DNA from: Streptacidiphilus sp. PB12-B1b
GTDB lineage: Bacteria > Actinomycetota > Actinomycetes > Streptomycetales > Streptomycetaceae
Direction of reading: 5' to 3'
Length of the DNA stretch: 64,000 nucleotides
Assembly: GCF_014084125.1 (NCBI RefSeq)
Contig: NZ_CP048405.1
Coordinates: 496,001 to 560,000, forward strand
Shown: positions 23,825 through 29,862 of the stretch, in pieces
Layout: each line of letters starts with the position of its first letter
How positions within the stretch are numbered: position 1 is the stretch's first letter
Notes under the pieces: generated by a model
Database searches by the model: none
What the model was told of the DNA's origin: nothing
Seen by the model: the letters and a program-made list of their open reading frames with translations, nothing else
Translations under genes and position numbers: made by a program

Positions 23825-23919
23825 ATTGATAAAGTGGTTGCTGGTGTGCCGGGAAGTCTGGTCGGCGCGGGGGACGGCCTGACGCGTTGTGCGCGGGCGC
23901 CCCCGGTAGCGGACATAGG
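23825..23919 (+). promoter_or_regulatory. Structured leader RNA candidate, copy A (before Na+/H+ antiporter)
   Basis: A 27-base block at 23841-23867 (containing TGCCGGGAAGTCTGGTCGG) is identical to one at 27003-27029 before the APC permease. It is preceded by GATAA at a similar distance and followed by a hairpin (CGGGGG 23868-23873 with CCCCCG 23900-23905) and a second conserved block, GTAGCGGAC, just before the Shine-Dalgarno. The core can fold on itself (GCCG...CGGC). Conserved blocks with a variable hairpin between them are typical of riboswitches acting on translation. Confidence 0.65.
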
Positions 23920-23928
23920 TGTCGACAC

Positions 23929-25485
23929 ATGCACGCGGTAGCTCTCGTCCTGTTCCTGGTGGTGCTGGGCACGACCGTGGCCACCGGGGCCCAGCGCTGG
24001 CGCGTCCCCGCTCCCTCGCTGCTGGTCCTGGCCGGAGTGGCGGTGGCCCTGATACCCGGCACCCCGGCCCTGCACATCGCCCCGCAGACCATCGGCCTGG
24101 TCGTACTCCCGCCGCTGCTCTACGCCTCGGCCGAGGAACTGTCCCTGCGCGACCTGCGCACGGTGTGGCGGCCGGTCACCGTGCTGGCGGTCGGCCTGGT
24201 CCTGGCCTCGGCCGCCGCTGTCGGCGTGCTGGCGAAGGTGCTGACCCCGCTCAGCGCCTCGATGGCGTTCGTCCTGGGTGCGGTCCTGGCCAGCACCGAC
24301 CCGGTCGCGGTGACCGCCCTGGGGCGTAGGCTCTCCCTGCCGGGCCGGGTGCAGGTGCTGGTGCAGGCCGAGAGCCTGTTCAACGACGCCACCTCGCTGG
24401 TGCTGTTCAAGGTCGCCCTCAGCTTCGCCGTGGCGTCGGGCACTGTGGGGTGGCAGGGCGCGGGCGGCGAGTTCCTGCTGCTGGCCGGCGGCGGATGCGC
24501 CATCGGCGCCGCGATTGCCGGGGTGGTGGTGCTGGTGCGCCGCCGCACCACCGACCCGGTCCTGGAGACCGTGATCGCCCTGATCACCCCCTACGGCGCC
24601 TACGTCGCAGCCGAGAGCGTCCACGCCTCCGGCGTCACCGCGGTGGTGGTCGCCGGGGTGCTGCTGGGCCGCTCCGGCCACCGGCTCACCGACGCCCGCA
24701 TCCGCCTGCAACTGGGCGCCGTGTACTCGGTGGTGGTCTTCGGCCTGGAGAGCGTGGTGTTCAGCATCGTCGGCCTGGAACTGCCCGCCCTGGTCCGCGA
24801 ACTGCCCGGTGCCAGTGGCCTGTGGCCGCTGCAGGCCGCAGCGATCGCCGCCGTGCTGATCGCCCTGCGCAGCGCCTGGATGCTGCCGCTGTCGGCGGCC
24901 GTCAAACCCGGCCAGGGACCCTCCCTGCGCGTGGCGGGGGTCTTGACCTGGGCCGGAACCCGTGGCGTCATGCCCCTGGCCGCCGCCCTGTCGATCCCGC
25001 TGGTCGCCGACGACGGCCGCCCGCTGCCCGGCCGCCCACTGGTCCTGGTCCTGACCACCGCCGTGGTGGTCTTCACCCTGGTGGTCCAGGGCCTGAGCCT
25101 GGCCGGGGTGGTCAAACGCTCCGGCCTGGCGGTCGAACCCGAGCACACCGCGCGCGAGCAGGCCCGCACCCGCGACCGCCTGGCCCGCACCGGCCTGGAG
25201 TACCTGGACCAGCTCACCGATCTGGAATCGGTGCCCCAGGCCGCCGTCAGCCGCGTCCGCACCGCCCTGACCGCCCGCCTGGACCATGATCAGGACACCC
25301 CCGCCGACGCGGTTCCCGACAGCGCCGAGCAGCTGGCCGCCTACCGCGGCCTGCGTCGCGAGGTCATCGCCCTCCAGGTCGACGAACTGCGCCGCCTGTA
25401 CGAGGAGCACCAGGTCAGCGACACCACCCGCCGCAACCTCCAGCACGACCTGGACCTGGAGGACGCCGCCATGGGCGGCACCTGA
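23929..25485 (+). CDS. CPA1-family Na+/H+ antiporter
   Basis: A 518-residue antiporter with about 12 membrane helices (to residue 400) and a hydrophilic, helical C-terminal domain. The CPA1 ion-site motifs are visible: ASTDPVAVTALG and AESLFNDATSLVLF, the latter with the Asn-Asp pair. The family exchanges cytoplasmic Na+ or K+ for protons. Start ATG 23929 lies about 10 bases after the conserved 3' block of the leader RNA candidate, so translation may be controlled by that RNA. Confidence 0.92.
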   Translation: MHAVALVLFLVVLGTTVATGAQRWRVPAPSLLVLAGVAVALIPGTPALHIAPQTIGLVVLPPLLYASAEELSLRDLRTVWRPVTVLAVGLVLASAAAVGVLAKVLTPLSASMAFVLGAVLASTDPVAVTALGRRLSLPGRVQVLVQAESLFNDATSLVLFKVALSFAVASGTVGWQGAGGEFLLLAGGGCAIGAAIAGVVVLVRRRTTDPVLETVIALITPYGAYVAAESVHASGVTAVVVAGVLLGRSGHRLTDARIRLQLGAVYSVVVFGLESVVFSIVGLELPALVRELPGASGLWPLQAAAIAAVLIALRSAWMLPLSAAVKPGQGPSLRVAGVLTWAGTRGVMPLAAALSIPLVADDGRPLPGRPLVLVLTTAVVVFTLVVQGLSLAGVVKRSGLAVEPEHTAREQARTRDRLARTGLEYLDQLTDLESVPQAAVSRVRTALTARLDHDQDTPADAVPDSAEQLAAYRGLRREVIALQVDELRRLYEEHQVSDTTRRNLQHDLDLEDAAMGGT

Positions 25486-25599
25486 AACAGGGCTTCCACC
25501 ATGCCAGCCGTCAGGATCGGCCGTGTGCTGGATCCTGGCACCGAGGCTGTGTCGCTCCGGCGCCACTCCCGCCGCGACCGCACGTAGTAGAAAGGGAGG

Positions 25600-25767
25600 A
25601 TGGGAAGACAGGCAGTGGCCGTGCTCTGCGTGCTCGCGATGGTAGCCGTCGTGGTCGGCGTGGATGTTCTGTTCTTCAGGCATCGGTTCTGGGAGCGGTT
25701 GATGGTGAACGTCGGCATCGTCCTGGTGTTCGCCGCGTTCTACTTGAGGTTCCTCAAGCGCTCGTGA
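25600..25767 (+). CDS. Small conserved membrane protein (55 aa)
   Basis: Short frame with two hydrophobic segments (AVAVLCVLAMVAVVVGVDVLF and VNVGIVLVFAAFYLRFL) linked by RHRFWERL, ending in FLKRS. Composition and two-helix form look like a real small membrane protein. A strong AAAGGGAGG directly abuts the ATG at 25600; GTG at 25615 gives a more usual spacing. It lies downstream of the antiporter on the same strand and might modulate it (inference from position only). Confidence 0.6.
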   Translation: MGRQAVAVLCVLAMVAVVVGVDVLFFRHRFWERLMVNVGIVLVFAAFYLRFLKRS

Positions 25768-25953
25768 GCCCTGCCTCCGCAATGCGGTTCACCAGGTGGC
25801 GGGTGATCACGCCGGACCTGTGGGTGGCCTGGACTCGCAAGACATCGGTCGCAGGGCTCGCGGACCTCAACTCGGACCGACGCCCTGACCTGTGCTGCTG
25901 TCGGCCGGGATCGCAGGTCTGCCCTGGAGCGATACGCGCCGGAGCCGGCCGGG

Positions 25954-26277
25954 TCAGTGCAGGGTCCTGCTCATGCCGGTCTGGCGCAGGGCGTACTCCG
26001 GCTGCCCGGACGCCCCCAGCAGGCGCAGCGCGTCCAGGGCCCCCGCCTCGCGCACATGGTCCAGGAGCACCCACACCGCATCGCGGCTCAGATACGTGAC
26101 CGCAGTGAGGTCCACCTCCATCGTGCGGTAACCCTGCGCCCGCAGCTCGTCCATGGTCTCCTGCAACCGGGCCGATGCGTGCTCCTCCACACCGCCGCGC
26201 AGCACAATCCGGGCTGTGTCACCGTGGCGGGACGCCGTGCGCACCGACGGCCCGTGGCGGACCCGGTCCCACCACAT
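25954..26277 (-). CDS. STAS-domain protein (anti-sigma factor antagonist-like)
   Basis: A 107-residue single STAS domain: TARIVLRGGVEEHASARLQETMDEL, then YRTMEVDLTAVTYLSRDAVWVLLDHV, the segment where anti-anti-sigma proteins carry the phosphorylatable Ser; here SRD occupies that place. These proteins bind serine-kinase anti-sigma factors and so control alternative sigma factors. The ATG overlaps the stop of the upstream STAS gene, so the pair is co-translated. Confidence 0.8.
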   Translation of the reverse strand: MWWDRVRHGPSVRTASRHGDTARIVLRGGVEEHASARLQETMDELRAQGYRTMEVDLTAVTYLSRDAVWVLLDHVREAGALDALRLLGASGQPEYALRQTGMSRTLH

Positions 26278-26747
26278 CAGGCACCCGCTCCCTGGTCCGG
26301 GCAGCGCGGCTCAGCCATCACCGCCGTTTCTTCCCGGAGGAGCGAGCCCCGGCCGGTGCTCCAGGCCGCGCCGGGGCTTGCCGGGGCGGGGGTCGGCACG
26401 GCGTCCGCGGGCAGGGCGTCGGCAAGGGTCTCGAAAGAGGGGAAGGCACCGTCCAGGCCCCAGATCCCGAAGACCCGCCTTGCCCCGGTACCGACAGCGG
26501 GCAGGACCAGGTGCACCGCACCGCGTTGCCCGAGCATGGCGCGCCGCAGTCCGAGCAGCAGACTTGCTCCGGAGGAGTCGCAGAACGTCAGCGCTCGCAG
26601 ATCCACCACCATCCGGCGGCAGCCGTCGTCGACCGGGGCGTGCAGCGCCTGCCGGACCTCTGCGGTCGACTCCACATCCAGTTCGCCGCTGACGCGCACC
26701 CACTGCCAGCCCTGCACCGCGCCGGAACCGACCTGTGCTCGGGACAC
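26277..26747 (-). CDS. STAS-domain protein (second of pair)
   Basis: A 156-residue protein with an N-terminal STAS domain: WVRVSGELDVESTAEVRQAL and RMVVDLRALTFCDSSGASLLLGLRRAM. DSSG carries the classic phosphorylated serine of SpoIIAA/RsbV. The C-terminal 50 residues are Ala/Pro-rich without clear fold. Start GTG 26747 with GGAAGGGAG upstream; longer readings look non-coding. The exact palindrome at 26879 lies about 130 bp upstream, shared with the divergent APC permease gene. Confidence 0.8.
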   Translation of the reverse strand: MSRAQVGSGAVQGWQWVRVSGELDVESTAEVRQALHAPVDDGCRRMVVDLRALTFCDSSGASLLLGLRRAMLGQRGAVHLVLPAVGTGARRVFGIWGLDGAFPSFETLADALPADAVPTPAPASPGAAWSTGRGSLLREETAVMAEPRCPDQGAGA

Positions 26748-26878
26748 ACCGCTCCCTTCCAGCGTCCAACGCGGACATATCGGCGACCTGCCCCGCGCTG
26801 GAGTCGCGACCGCATCGACGCCAGCCGGGCCGAGAGATCGGCAAGGGGGTGGCGCGGATGCGGCCGTACCCAATCACC

Positions 26879-26891
26879 TTGCATTATGCAA
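26879..26891. promoter_or_regulatory. Palindromic operator TTGCATTATGCAA (site 5)
   Basis: Exact copy between the divergent STAS pair and the APC permease. On the plus strand it is followed after four bases by ATCGGGGTG, matching site 2 over that stretch as well. The permease is thus under two controls: this operator and the leader RNA at 26989-27063. Confidence 0.7.
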
Positions 26892-26988
26892 TGGAATCGG
26901 GGTGCGTGCCAGCGCCCGCCGCCTTCCACCGTCACCGGGGTACAGGCGGCGCGTCGAGCGGATGGTGCAGACGCGGCGTCAAGGAACG

Positions 26989-27063
26989 GATAAGGTCCCA
27001 GCCTGGTGTGCCGGGAAGTCTGGTCGGCGATACAGGCAGTCATGCCCGCAGCGGACCAGGAAG
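26989..27063 (+). promoter_or_regulatory. Structured leader RNA candidate, copy B (before APC permease)
   Basis: Carries the same 27-base block (27003-27029) as the antiporter leader, with GATAA 14 bases before it. It is followed by a short hairpin (GGCA-GTCA-TGCC, 27035-27046) in place of the long one in copy A, then the conserved CAGCGGAC next to the Shine-Dalgarno CAGGAAGG. Sequence outside the conserved blocks differs freely, arguing against a recent simple duplication. Confidence 0.65.
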
Positions 27064-27073
27064 GCCCACGCCC

Positions 27074-28507
27074 ATGAGTCCCGACCACCAGCATCCCGCA
27101 GTCCCTGGCGGTACCCGTGGCTGGCTGCACACCCGGCCGGTGCTGCTGGTCGCGTTCGCGTTCGCCGTGATGGCCGACCCGGTGTCCTCGGTCGCCTACG
27201 CCATCGAGGCCGCCCTGCGGGCCCTGCATGGGGACCTGGACCTGCTGCTGCCCACCATGGGCCTGGTCGTCGCCCTGATCGGGCTGGTCATCGTCAACTA
27301 CCACCAGCTGGTCGCCCGCTACCCGGGCGGCGGCGGGGCCGCGGCGGCCGCCGGCGAGGCGTTCGGGGAAGCCTGGGCGTTCGTGCCGATCGGCGCACTG
27401 ATCGTCGACTTCGTCCTGACCATCGCCATCAGCTCGGCCGCCGGAGCCTCCGCGATCATCGCCTACCTGCCCGCCGCCGCACCCTGGCGCATCCCCCTGG
27501 CCCTGGCTCTGACCGCCGCCGTGGCCGGGCTGACCTGGTTCGGACACCTGGGACGCGCGGTGTTCGCGGCCATGACCCTGGCCTTCATCGCCGTCACCAC
27601 CCTGGTCCTGATCGACGGCCTAAACGCCCCCGTCCACCCCAGCGGCACCACCACCCACACCCCCGGACACTGGGCGCCGCTTGCCGTCGCCCTGGCCTTC
27701 CCCGTCGCCATGGCCCTGGCCACCGGCGTCGAAGCCCCCTCCTCCGCCATCGCCCAACTGGGACAGCTCGACGACAAGGGCCGCCGCCGCTTCGGCCGCA
27801 CCACCCTGTGGCTCACCCTGGTGATCGTCGGCACCATCACTCTGGGAATGACCGCCGAAGCCGTCCATCTGCGCATCGGCATCCCCGCCCCCGACAGCAC
27901 CCAGATCGCCGACCTCGCCCAACGCGCCGCCCCCAAAGCCCTCTACGCAATCTTCCAACTCGCCACCGCACTGCTGCTGCTGTCCGCCGCGTCCTCCTCC
28001 TTCCAAGCCGGACCCGGCCTACTCAAAGCCCTCGCCCGCCACCACGACCAAGACGGAGACACCGGCATCCTGCCCACCCCCTGGGGCACCACCAACCGCC
28101 ACCACACCCCCTACTGGGGCGTCCTGGCCTTCCTCCTCGCCTCCGCCGCGGTCATCACCGCCGCCGGCGGCCAGGACCAACGCCTGGTCCTGTTCTACGC
28201 CGTCTCCGTCTTCATGGCCTTCCTGGCCGGCCTGCTCGCCATGGCCCGCTTCGCCGCCCGCGAACACCACCACGGGCACCTGGCCCTGAACGCCGTCGGT
28301 GCACTCGCCGTCGCCTTCACCCTCGCCGTCAACCTCGCCCGCGGCGAACCCCTCGCCTCCCTGGCCGCCGCCCTGTTCATCGCCGCGATCCTGCACCGGC
28401 TCTGGATCAGAGCAGGCCGCCCCCGCGGCATCCGCAACGCCGCCGCCAACGCCGAAGCCACCCCCGGCCAAGCCCAGTCCACGGACGCGGCCCACCGGCC
28501 CACCTGA
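27074..28507 (+). CDS. APC-superfamily permease (amino acid or K+ transporter)
   Basis: A 477-residue membrane protein with about 12 helices. The N-terminal APC signature is clear: FAVMADPVSSVAYAIEAAL, GGGAAAAAGEAFGEAWAF and DFVLTIAISSAAGASAI. It has no large cytoplasmic domain. Relatives move amino acids or potassium. The shared leader RNA with an Na+/H+ antiporter and the convergent KdpD-like DUF4118 gene favour a cation role, but that is inference. Start ATG 27074 with AGGAAGG upstream. A bidirectional hairpin follows at 28592. Confidence 0.85.
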   Translation: MSPDHQHPAVPGGTRGWLHTRPVLLVAFAFAVMADPVSSVAYAIEAALRALHGDLDLLLPTMGLVVALIGLVIVNYHQLVARYPGGGGAAAAAGEAFGEAWAFVPIGALIVDFVLTIAISSAAGASAIIAYLPAAAPWRIPLALALTAAVAGLTWFGHLGRAVFAAMTLAFIAVTTLVLIDGLNAPVHPSGTTTHTPGHWAPLAVALAFPVAMALATGVEAPSSAIAQLGQLDDKGRRRFGRTTLWLTLVIVGTITLGMTAEAVHLRIGIPAPDSTQIADLAQRAAPKALYAIFQLATALLLLSAASSSFQAGPGLLKALARHHDQDGDTGILPTPWGTTNRHHTPYWGVLAFLLASAAVITAAGGQDQRLVLFYAVSVFMAFLAGLLAMARFAAREHHHGHLALNAVGALAVAFTLAVNLARGEPLASLAAALFIAAILHRLWIRAGRPRGIRNAAANAEATPGQAQSTDAAHRPT

Positions 28508-28657: not shown

Positions 28658-29407
28658 TCAGGCCGCCTGCACCGGCCGCATTGCCGAGTCCAGAGCCGAA
28701 CTCGCCTGCTCTGCCAGGGTGACCGCCACCAGCCGGGCCTGGGCGGAGGGCATCGTGCCCGGCGTGGAGTCGAGCATGAACCGGCCGACGTATCCGCTGC
28801 TGCCGAACACGCGCAGCTCCATCTCGTCGGGAAGTCCGAGCCGGTCCGCATCCCAGCGCTTGCGCCCCACCATCACCGAACCGTCGTGCTCCAGACGCGG
28901 CGGGTTCCCCATGAGCGTGCCGTACTCGAAGCGACAACCATGCAGCTCCAGCAGGTCGACCAGCTCAGCCCGCACATGCTCGGCCACGGCATGCGCCGAC
29001 GCACCGGAGTGCGCGAGCGCGGCGGTGTCGTGGATCCGACCCAGATACCCGGCATCGGTGACCGCGATCACCTGGAACCGGCGCGCACGAGCCGCCAACT
29101 GGGAAACCGCCAGCCCGACAAGCAGCAACAACACGGCCGTGGTGACGTCAGAGGAATCGCTGATCGTCAGCCGCTCATAGGGGAGAGTGAAGAAGAAGTC
29201 GAACCACACCGCCGCGCTCAGCGCAGCGAGCGCCCCGGCCAGCCGGTGCCCCAAAGCAGCCACTGCGACCACCACCACGACCAACAGCAGCGCCACGTTC
29301 GTGTTGGCCAGATGGCCGCGCCACGGCAACAGCACCACCGCGAGCAGCAGCGGCGCCAACACCGCCACCAGCAAGGAGACCGGACCACGAGAGACGTACT
29401 GGCGCAT
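28658..29407 (-). CDS. DUF4118 membrane protein, KdpD-like sensor fragment
   Basis: A 249-residue protein. Four N-terminal helices match DUF4118, the membrane part of KdpD-type sensors (LPWRGHLANTNVALLLVVVVV, then ALSAAVWFDFFFTLPYERLTI). The C-terminal 130 residues are a soluble, GAF-like domain without histidine kinase motifs. KdpD senses K+ limitation; this protein may sense ions or be a partner for another kinase. Start ATG 29407 has GGAGG six bases upstream; a GTG one codon earlier is possible. Confidence 0.82.
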   Translation of the reverse strand: MRQYVSRGPVSLLVAVLAPLLLAVVLLPWRGHLANTNVALLLVVVVVAVAALGHRLAGALAALSAAVWFDFFFTLPYERLTISDSSDVTTAVLLLLVGLAVSQLAARARRFQVIAVTDAGYLGRIHDTAALAHSGASAHAVAEHVRAELVDLLELHGCRFEYGTLMGNPPRLEHDGSVMVGRKRWDADRLGLPDEMELRVFGSSGYVGRFMLDSTPGTMPSAQARLVAVTLAEQASSALDSAMRPVQAA

Positions 29408-29862
29408 CACGCACCTCCTAGCGTCCAGGTATAGACAGGACGGTCACCGCCCACAAGCGGCAGGACACGTCGTTAACGCAACCCTTGCGGCAGAGGCCGC
29501 GCAGGCATCCACGCCGTCCGCACCGGCCGATCACGCAAAGGAATACACCAGTCCTGGGTCCCCGAGTGTTCGTCGGCTCAGTTGCCGCGGTCAGGCCCCG
29601 TGCCGCTGGGCGTCGATCTTGGCCCTCTCCGATCTGAGCGCCCTGCGGGAACGGAACTGCGCGGCGGTTAGATAGGTTGGGTGGGGCTGCCCGGCAGCCG
29701 ACAGGCGACGCCCGGGAGATCGGCTGGAGCACCCGGATTTCGCCCGTATGAGGATGAGAAGTGATGGGCAATGAGGAGATCCGGGGAGAGTGATTTTTGC
29801 AGCCCAGTGATCATGTCGCCGCATCGTTGCAGTTCAGCGTCTTGGTCGGGGAAGACTCCCGA
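29408..29862. other. Intergenic boundary between ion island and conjugation operon
   Basis: 455 bp holding the promoter of the DUF4118 gene (TATAGACAGGACGG near 29430) and the 3' side of the conjugation operon. Open frames on both strands look non-coding. No att-like repeat or tRNA could be seen. Confidence 0.4.

Follow-up and report, generated by a model that had tools for sequence, protein, structure and literature searches.

Among the closest described systems, as presented in the respective reports, (i) the Na+-I riboswitch turns on kefB and further Na+/K+ genes through a terminator platform (PMC9337991); (ii) the Li+-I and Li+-II riboswitches precede nhaA genes and activate them, are reported from Proteobacteria only, and are expected to be joined by further Li+ sensors (PMC9646797); and (iii) the cyclic di-AMP (c-di-AMP) riboswitch (ydaO/yuaA) governs cell-wall hydrolases in Streptomyces and K+ and amino acid transporter genes elsewhere (PMC10117811). 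We compared with these systems a leader RNA element from Streptacidiphilus sp. PB12-B1b, found in a 64,000-nt stretch of its genome (NZ_CP048405.1, positions 496,001 to 560,000; hereafter the window), where a first-pass annotation had proposed a shared riboswitch-like leader before two cation transporter genes. The identical 27-base block reported before both genes (23841-23867 and 27003-27029) is exact in its coordinates, and the genes are, as had been read, a Na+/H+ antiporter (CPA1 type, TIGR00831) and an APC permease (PF13520), the only PDB sequence relative of the latter at E ≤ 0.1 being the K+ transporter KimA.

Both copies are members of a 25-nt leader motif, GG(U/A)G-N-GCC-GGGAAGNCUGGUC-GGC-N (hereafter the core), and the leader RNA that carries it is real and far wider than first reported. 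Ligand identity aside, it probably represents a new class of cis-regulatory leader RNA, most likely a small ON-type riboswitch for cation/pH homeostasis genes; the features computed directly are its conservation, the covariation of its stem (P1), its gene association, its placement behind the -10 box in Actinomycetota, its mutually exclusive helices, and its embedding in terminators in Chloroflexota. With position 0 set at the first stem base (23848 in copy 1 and 27010 in copy 2), the core comprises GG[U/A]G, a joint base at -1, the stem GCC/GGC together with G3-C15, the loop GGAAGNCUGGU, and base 19. P1 has 3-4 bp, and GGGAAGNCUGGUC is nearly invariant. A 17-base part of the block occurs just twice in the window when ≤3 mismatches are allowed (0.34 expected); two or more such occurrences arose in 6 of 100 shuffles, a statistic that does not concern exact copies. 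A third perfect core lies in the same genome (G000:C1:3078427-3078451), before a close paralogue of the window antiporter (87% identical over the aligned stretch). The length-variable hairpin noted earlier is present in both window copies but is not part of the core, the conserved unit being smaller, and in many relatives the leader is short and shows no obvious hairpin. The exact 17-mer is also found in two IMG/VR viral contigs.

As is typical of riboswitches in general, the core is a structured domain that is conserved in mRNA leaders and shows compensatory changes. Among 266 less redundant sites (L276, L277, and L280 left out), ten stem changes were compensated versus one that was not, and Chloroflexota sites held five further compensated changes, all of them A-U pairs. 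Because collecting sites with a structured model favours paired changes, the outer stem was left free in a separate search; among the matches listed, 14 sites had a changed 5' strand (one site with an N in the stem was left uncounted), of which ten were fully compensated (GUC/GAC in three, GCU/AGC in one, and UCC/GGA in six), each with a TAnnnT box. The other four had neither compensation nor a TAnnnT box and pass for chance hits, and six of the ten compensated sites belong to one related gene, which lowers the number of independent events. The covarying pairs that the first-pass annotation had named as a check are present in P1. A pair table of 40 near-identical distinct rows, judged by its own shuffles, gave modest support only, and position 9 did not covary with the leader, being simply variable.

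Of all pairs of positions between -25 and 44, -1/19 carried the most mutual information (0.57 bit in the 266 sites). In 207 pattern sites (216 less nine without GGNG, two of which, namely L071 and one in L061 with GGUAU, are probably genuine), it was U.G in 93, C.A in 60, A.A in 14, U-A in 11, and other combinations in fewer (chi-square 134), the sole C-G coming from a Chloroflexi metagenome-assembled genome (MAG). U.G and C.A have the same wobble geometry, and a wobble therefore seems to be wanted at -1/19 in Actinomycetota. The frequency of C.A, its interchangeability with U.G, and the antiporter targets would also suit a pH sensor, in which a protonated C.A wobble at this pair, or the loop, shifts P1 against a competing helix (P2) and antiporters follow cytoplasmic pH. 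We regard such a sensor as improbable, since the commonest state, U.G, cannot be protonated in such a way, Chloroflexota often have U-A or U-C here, and both U.G and C.A states occur among Streptomyces and Micrococcales loci.

Recurrence of the leader before transporter genes in actinobacterial genomes, as had been proposed, was borne out by a search with a covariance model of 25 positions (R1), scored with strict filters in the large genome sets. R1 matched 98 of 396 Actinomycetota genomes, 61 of them from classes other than Actinomycetia, and 12 of 151 Chloroflexota genomes, the Chloroflexi MAG included; in one Chloroflexota class, which we infer to be Ktedonobacteria, 21 of 47 genomes had matches. 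A pattern search with GGNG, the loop, and the closing G/C fixed and the outer stem free found the core in 195 of 296 Actinomycetia genomes and gave 7 hits in all with the reversed control; the leader is present in many soil bacteria, the named carriers including Streptomyces, Nocardia, Mycolicibacterium, Microbacterium, Arthrobacter, Amycolatopsis, and Actinomadura. R1 had no match in 200 Pseudomonadota genomes (the phylum of Polaromonas), an empty result that alone is of little weight, and one weak match (30.5 bits) in 199 genomes from the phylum of Cohnella. Nine R1 matches lie clustered in one genome (G057), where they are followed by genes for NhaA, CPA antiporters, and a sodium:alanine symporter.

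In front of the core, a TAnnnT box begins 18 nt before the stem in 133 of the 266 sites and 16-20 nt before it in 191 (background 0.3% per position). From this placement of the -10 box, the leader RNA should start at GGUG in Actinomycetota; the GATAA reported before the block is present in both window copies, but as the -10 promoter box rather than as a part of the RNA. Chloroflexota sites showed no peak in -10 box spacing. Open reading frame (ORF) starts were chosen by script, which makes leader lengths approximate and a few frames doubtful. The fixed spacing behind the -10 box in Actinomycetota, together with the inverted repeat, could speak for a transcription-factor site in the DNA (an operator or promoter-proximal element), with no role as RNA. 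This is very improbable, given that the loop is conserved and not palindromic, that a U.G/C.A coupling would be meaningless in a palindrome, and that Chloroflexota lose the spacing while the motif sits in a terminator hairpin. At four loci with head-to-head gene pairs, the core stands at the start of both divergent transcripts.

In Chloroflexota, the core 5' arm pairs with a strand that follows the core closely and leads into a run of U's, for example GAGGAGUGCCGGG with CCCGGCACUCCUC-UUUUCUUU at locus L297. By strict criteria, it forms the 5' arm of an intrinsic terminator within 20 nt in 14 of 33 less redundant sites (shuffle mean 0.20; largest count 2 in 200 shuffles), and a terminator lies within 100 nt in 18 of the 33 (shuffle mean 1.25); by loose criteria, the count was 26/37 (9.35 expected). 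At another locus (L302), the U-run hairpin is instead formed with GACUGGU of the core. Since P1 and the terminator cannot coexist, core folding should give read-through, which would make the element an ON switch; these terminators thus supply the expression platform, mutually exclusive with the conserved domain, that marks a riboswitch. In the mechanism that we propose, the core would fold, probably on ligand binding, and so sequester a strand that would otherwise form an inhibitory helix. This helix would be, in Ktedonobacteria, the intrinsic terminator built from the core 5' arm and, in Actinomycetota, P2, in which the core 3' half pairs with a CGACC or GACCRGR block of the leader close to the Shine-Dalgarno.

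Leader CGACC occurs in 88 of 215 leaders versus 38.5 expected, which makes it the most enriched 5-mer apart from Shine-Dalgarno words, and it often lies 10-12 nt behind the core or adjoins the Shine-Dalgarno. Core positions 12-18 were more complementary to natural leaders than to shuffled ones (t = -5.4), and the predicted pairing probability of positions 12-16 with the leader was 0.79 versus 0.58. Further, G17 has a pairing partner in the base preceding CGAYC in 86 of 123 cases (background 0.52), and with A17 that base is a U in five of six cases (Fisher p = 0.011). P2 rests on these four observations, because counts of contiguous pairs were mixed: there were 23 seven-pair helices versus 12.6 expected, and five- and six-pair helices fell below expectation. 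Forcing P1 cost 8.6 kcal/mol versus 4.8 with shuffled leaders. This modelling supports P1/P2 exclusivity in Actinomycetota, where P2 would lower translation, the energies themselves giving no ON/OFF direction. In copy 2, the block said to abut the Shine-Dalgarno pairs with the motif as the 3' strand of a predicted 7-bp helix; the same pairing is interrupted in copy 1. An H-type pseudoknot, with P1 and P2 together, is disfavoured because leader pairing extends to P1 positions 16-17. The core 5' half (0-6) paired with actinobacterial leaders more weakly than with shuffles (t = +3.6), and terminators within 100 nt numbered 2/205 in Actinomycetota versus 2.45 expected (14/207 versus 14.1 by loose criteria). 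A hairpin of leader GACC with GGUC at the Shine-Dalgarno was rejected as a general rule, as it showed no association (9/60 with GACC versus 10/75 without; 7/142 without a Shine-Dalgarno) and as the upstream leader was also less complementary to the Shine-Dalgarno than shuffles (+0.32, t = 2.3).

The genes behind the core are mainly antiporter genes. Among 200 downstream proteins put to Pfam (11 of 211 ORFs, being short, partial, or from extra sites, were not; the 200 include two from Chloroflexota and four from sites without GGNG), Na_H_antiport_1 (NhaA) accounted for 110, Na_H_Exchanger (CPA) for 30, CBS for 11, and ABC_tran for 4, with Na/Ca exchanger (2), TrkH, and CitMHS among the rarer families in single or few cases. 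The CBS proteins are often followed by a permease, and the two permeases tested were CitMHS/ArsB proteins with weak NhaD matches; core copies also precede a sodium:alanine symporter gene (L278) and, at L286, an NfeD operon. The 36 Chloroflexota proteins comprised Na_H_Exchanger in 18, NhaA in 4, DUF2254 in 4, P450 in 3, and Na/Ca exchanger in 2. DUF2254 membrane proteins, found at four Chloroflexota loci and once more in a set of 115 proteins, give a hint that this family serves ion homeostasis. At six loci (family f4), ABC transporter genes follow a core with the UCC/GGA stem; at one of them (L271), the next gene matches PF24686, a fluoroquinolone export permease. The core in the leader suggests that this ABC system serves in ion efflux.

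Given this gene content, ion sensing by the leader RNA is plausible. It is likely that a ligand binds the core directly; Na+ is the likeliest candidate, at somewhat less than an even chance, and otherwise the signal may be Li+, alkaline pH, or another. A Na+ signal fits because Na+ export and K+ uptake genes stand under one RNA. In c-di-AMP signalling, by comparison, the nucleotide reduces K+ uptake and has the opposite effect on K+ export. The hairpin could, however, be the site of an RNA-binding protein (an antiterminator or a translation regulator) with no small ligand: the short stem, fixed loop, and 5'-terminal place suit such a site, and the mutually exclusive helices fit either reading. 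We consider a protein site unlikely, as the loop is preserved unchanged between two phyla whose platforms differ and no partner gene is known, conserved neighbours not having been searched for a regulator.

Several findings weigh against the riboswitch that we propose. In Chloroflexota, (i) the -1/19 wobble rule fails and (ii) a near terminator is absent in 19/33 sites. In Actinomycetota, (iii) there were no terminators near the core (0/205, strict criteria); (iv) the P2 pair is lost in the position-16 variants and in one position-17 variant (L018, L264); and (v) forcing P1 did not free the Shine-Dalgarno (0.42 to 0.39), natural leaders gaining less than shuffled ones (p = 0.03). Moreover, (vi) some downstream genes have no clear ion link, namely three for P450 and others for a methyltransferase, PPDK_N, and hydrolases; the P450 genes, at L310, L311, and L329 in Ktedonobacteria, have no apparent one. 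The most specific form of the proposal is possible but somewhat short of an even chance: a 25-nt ion riboswitch that senses Na+ directly and sets Na+ export plus K+ uptake in Ktedonobacteria and in the majority of Actinomycetia, the ON platform being embedded in a terminator in the first phylum and acting on translation in the second.

Table 1. Positions of the leader elements and transporter genes in the window.
Feature	Position	Strand	Details
-10 box TAAAGT, copy 1 (first-pass GATAA)	23830..23835	+	
25-nt core, copy 1	23843..23867	+	P1 arms 23848-23851 / 23863-23866; loop 23852-23862; wobble U23847.G23867
Variable hairpin, copy 1	23868..23905	+	CGGGGG 23868-23873 with CCCCCG 23900-23905; accessory, not conserved
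Shine-Dalgarno block GACATAGG, copy 1	23912..23919	+	Pairing with 23857-23863 possible but interrupted
CPA1 Na+/H+ antiporter gene	23929..25485	+	PF00999; TIGR00831 above cut-off; PDB relatives
-10 box TAAGGT, copy 2	26991..26996	+	
25-nt core, copy 2	27005..27029	+	P1 arms 27010-27013 / 27025-27028; wobble U27009.G27029
Small variable hairpin GGCA/TGCC, copy 2	27035..27046	+	Predicted minimum free energy (MFE) fold
Competing helix P2 (predicted), 3' strand GACCAGG, copy 2	27054..27060	+	7 bp with UCUGGUC 27019-27025 (MFE); adjoins Shine-Dalgarno
APC permease gene, KimA-like K+ transporter	27074..28507	+	PF13520; KimA 7e-26

Between the two transporter genes, the window also encodes two STAS-domain proteins on the minus strand (25954-26873), one of them scoring below the Pfam cut-off. 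Behind the permease gene, likewise on the minus strand (28658-29410), it encodes a protein with DUF4118, a domain known from KdpD.

To place the core among known riboswitches, we scanned with Rfam 15, in which no family matched the element (whole window, with wider E-values on the region and 17 loci). This agrees with the earlier failure to match it to ydaO or nhaA consensus patterns, and the same scan found Na+-I, nhaA-I, and c-di-AMP RNAs where present. The suggested c-di-AMP control was not supported, as RF00379 had no match in the window or the loci scanned, though a true one was detected at L336. Neither RF03071 (Na+-I) nor RF03057 (Li+-I) matched at the loci scanned, up to E = 10 or 5; RF03071 had no match in the window's genome, and conversely R1 found nothing at the riboswitches in 18 loci with RF03071 or RF03057 matches (best 15.1 bits, E = 0.19, elsewhere). 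Li+-II (nhaA-II) likewise gave no match, its comparison resting on the whole Rfam scan, in which a positive control for nhaA-II was lacking. A description of the motif was not found in the available parts of the literature, including a term search in genome-wide noncoding RNA papers, and an earlier mention is possible.

In its functional setting, the core resembles Na+-I (the DUF1646 motif), an ON switch for Na+/K+ genes with a terminator platform, and Li+-I (nhaA-I), which shares nhaA targets and whose consensus also contains a UGGUCGG string and a 5' GGGUG. These likenesses in gene kinds and strings would favour a divergent member of the Na+-I/Li+-I group, a reading that we hold to be most unlikely: the models do not match at each other's loci, and Na+-I has two conserved hairpins over 55 model positions, and nhaA-I a two-hairpin architecture, versus one hairpin and 25 positions in the core. 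The c-di-AMP riboswitch differs in having 134 positions and a pseudoknot. If the riboswitch that we propose is true, it would give the phylum that includes Streptomyces and mycobacteria a sensor for sodium (or alkali/pH), in a group whose scanned loci held no match to the known Na+/Li+ riboswitch models. The downstream genes also suggest roles, open to experimental test, for DUF2254 proteins, CBS-plus-ArsB/NhaD-like operons, and ABC exporters currently annotated as drug pumps. At 25 nt, the core would stand among the smallest natural aptamers and would offer a test of how few nucleotides make a selective sensor. Compared in sequence through the Rfam scan only, and serving other genes, further formal parallels are preQ1-I, a very small aptamer beside the ribosome site, and the hydroxymethylpyrimidine diphosphate (HMP-PP) riboswitch, which is reported to have an aptamer embedded in a terminator.

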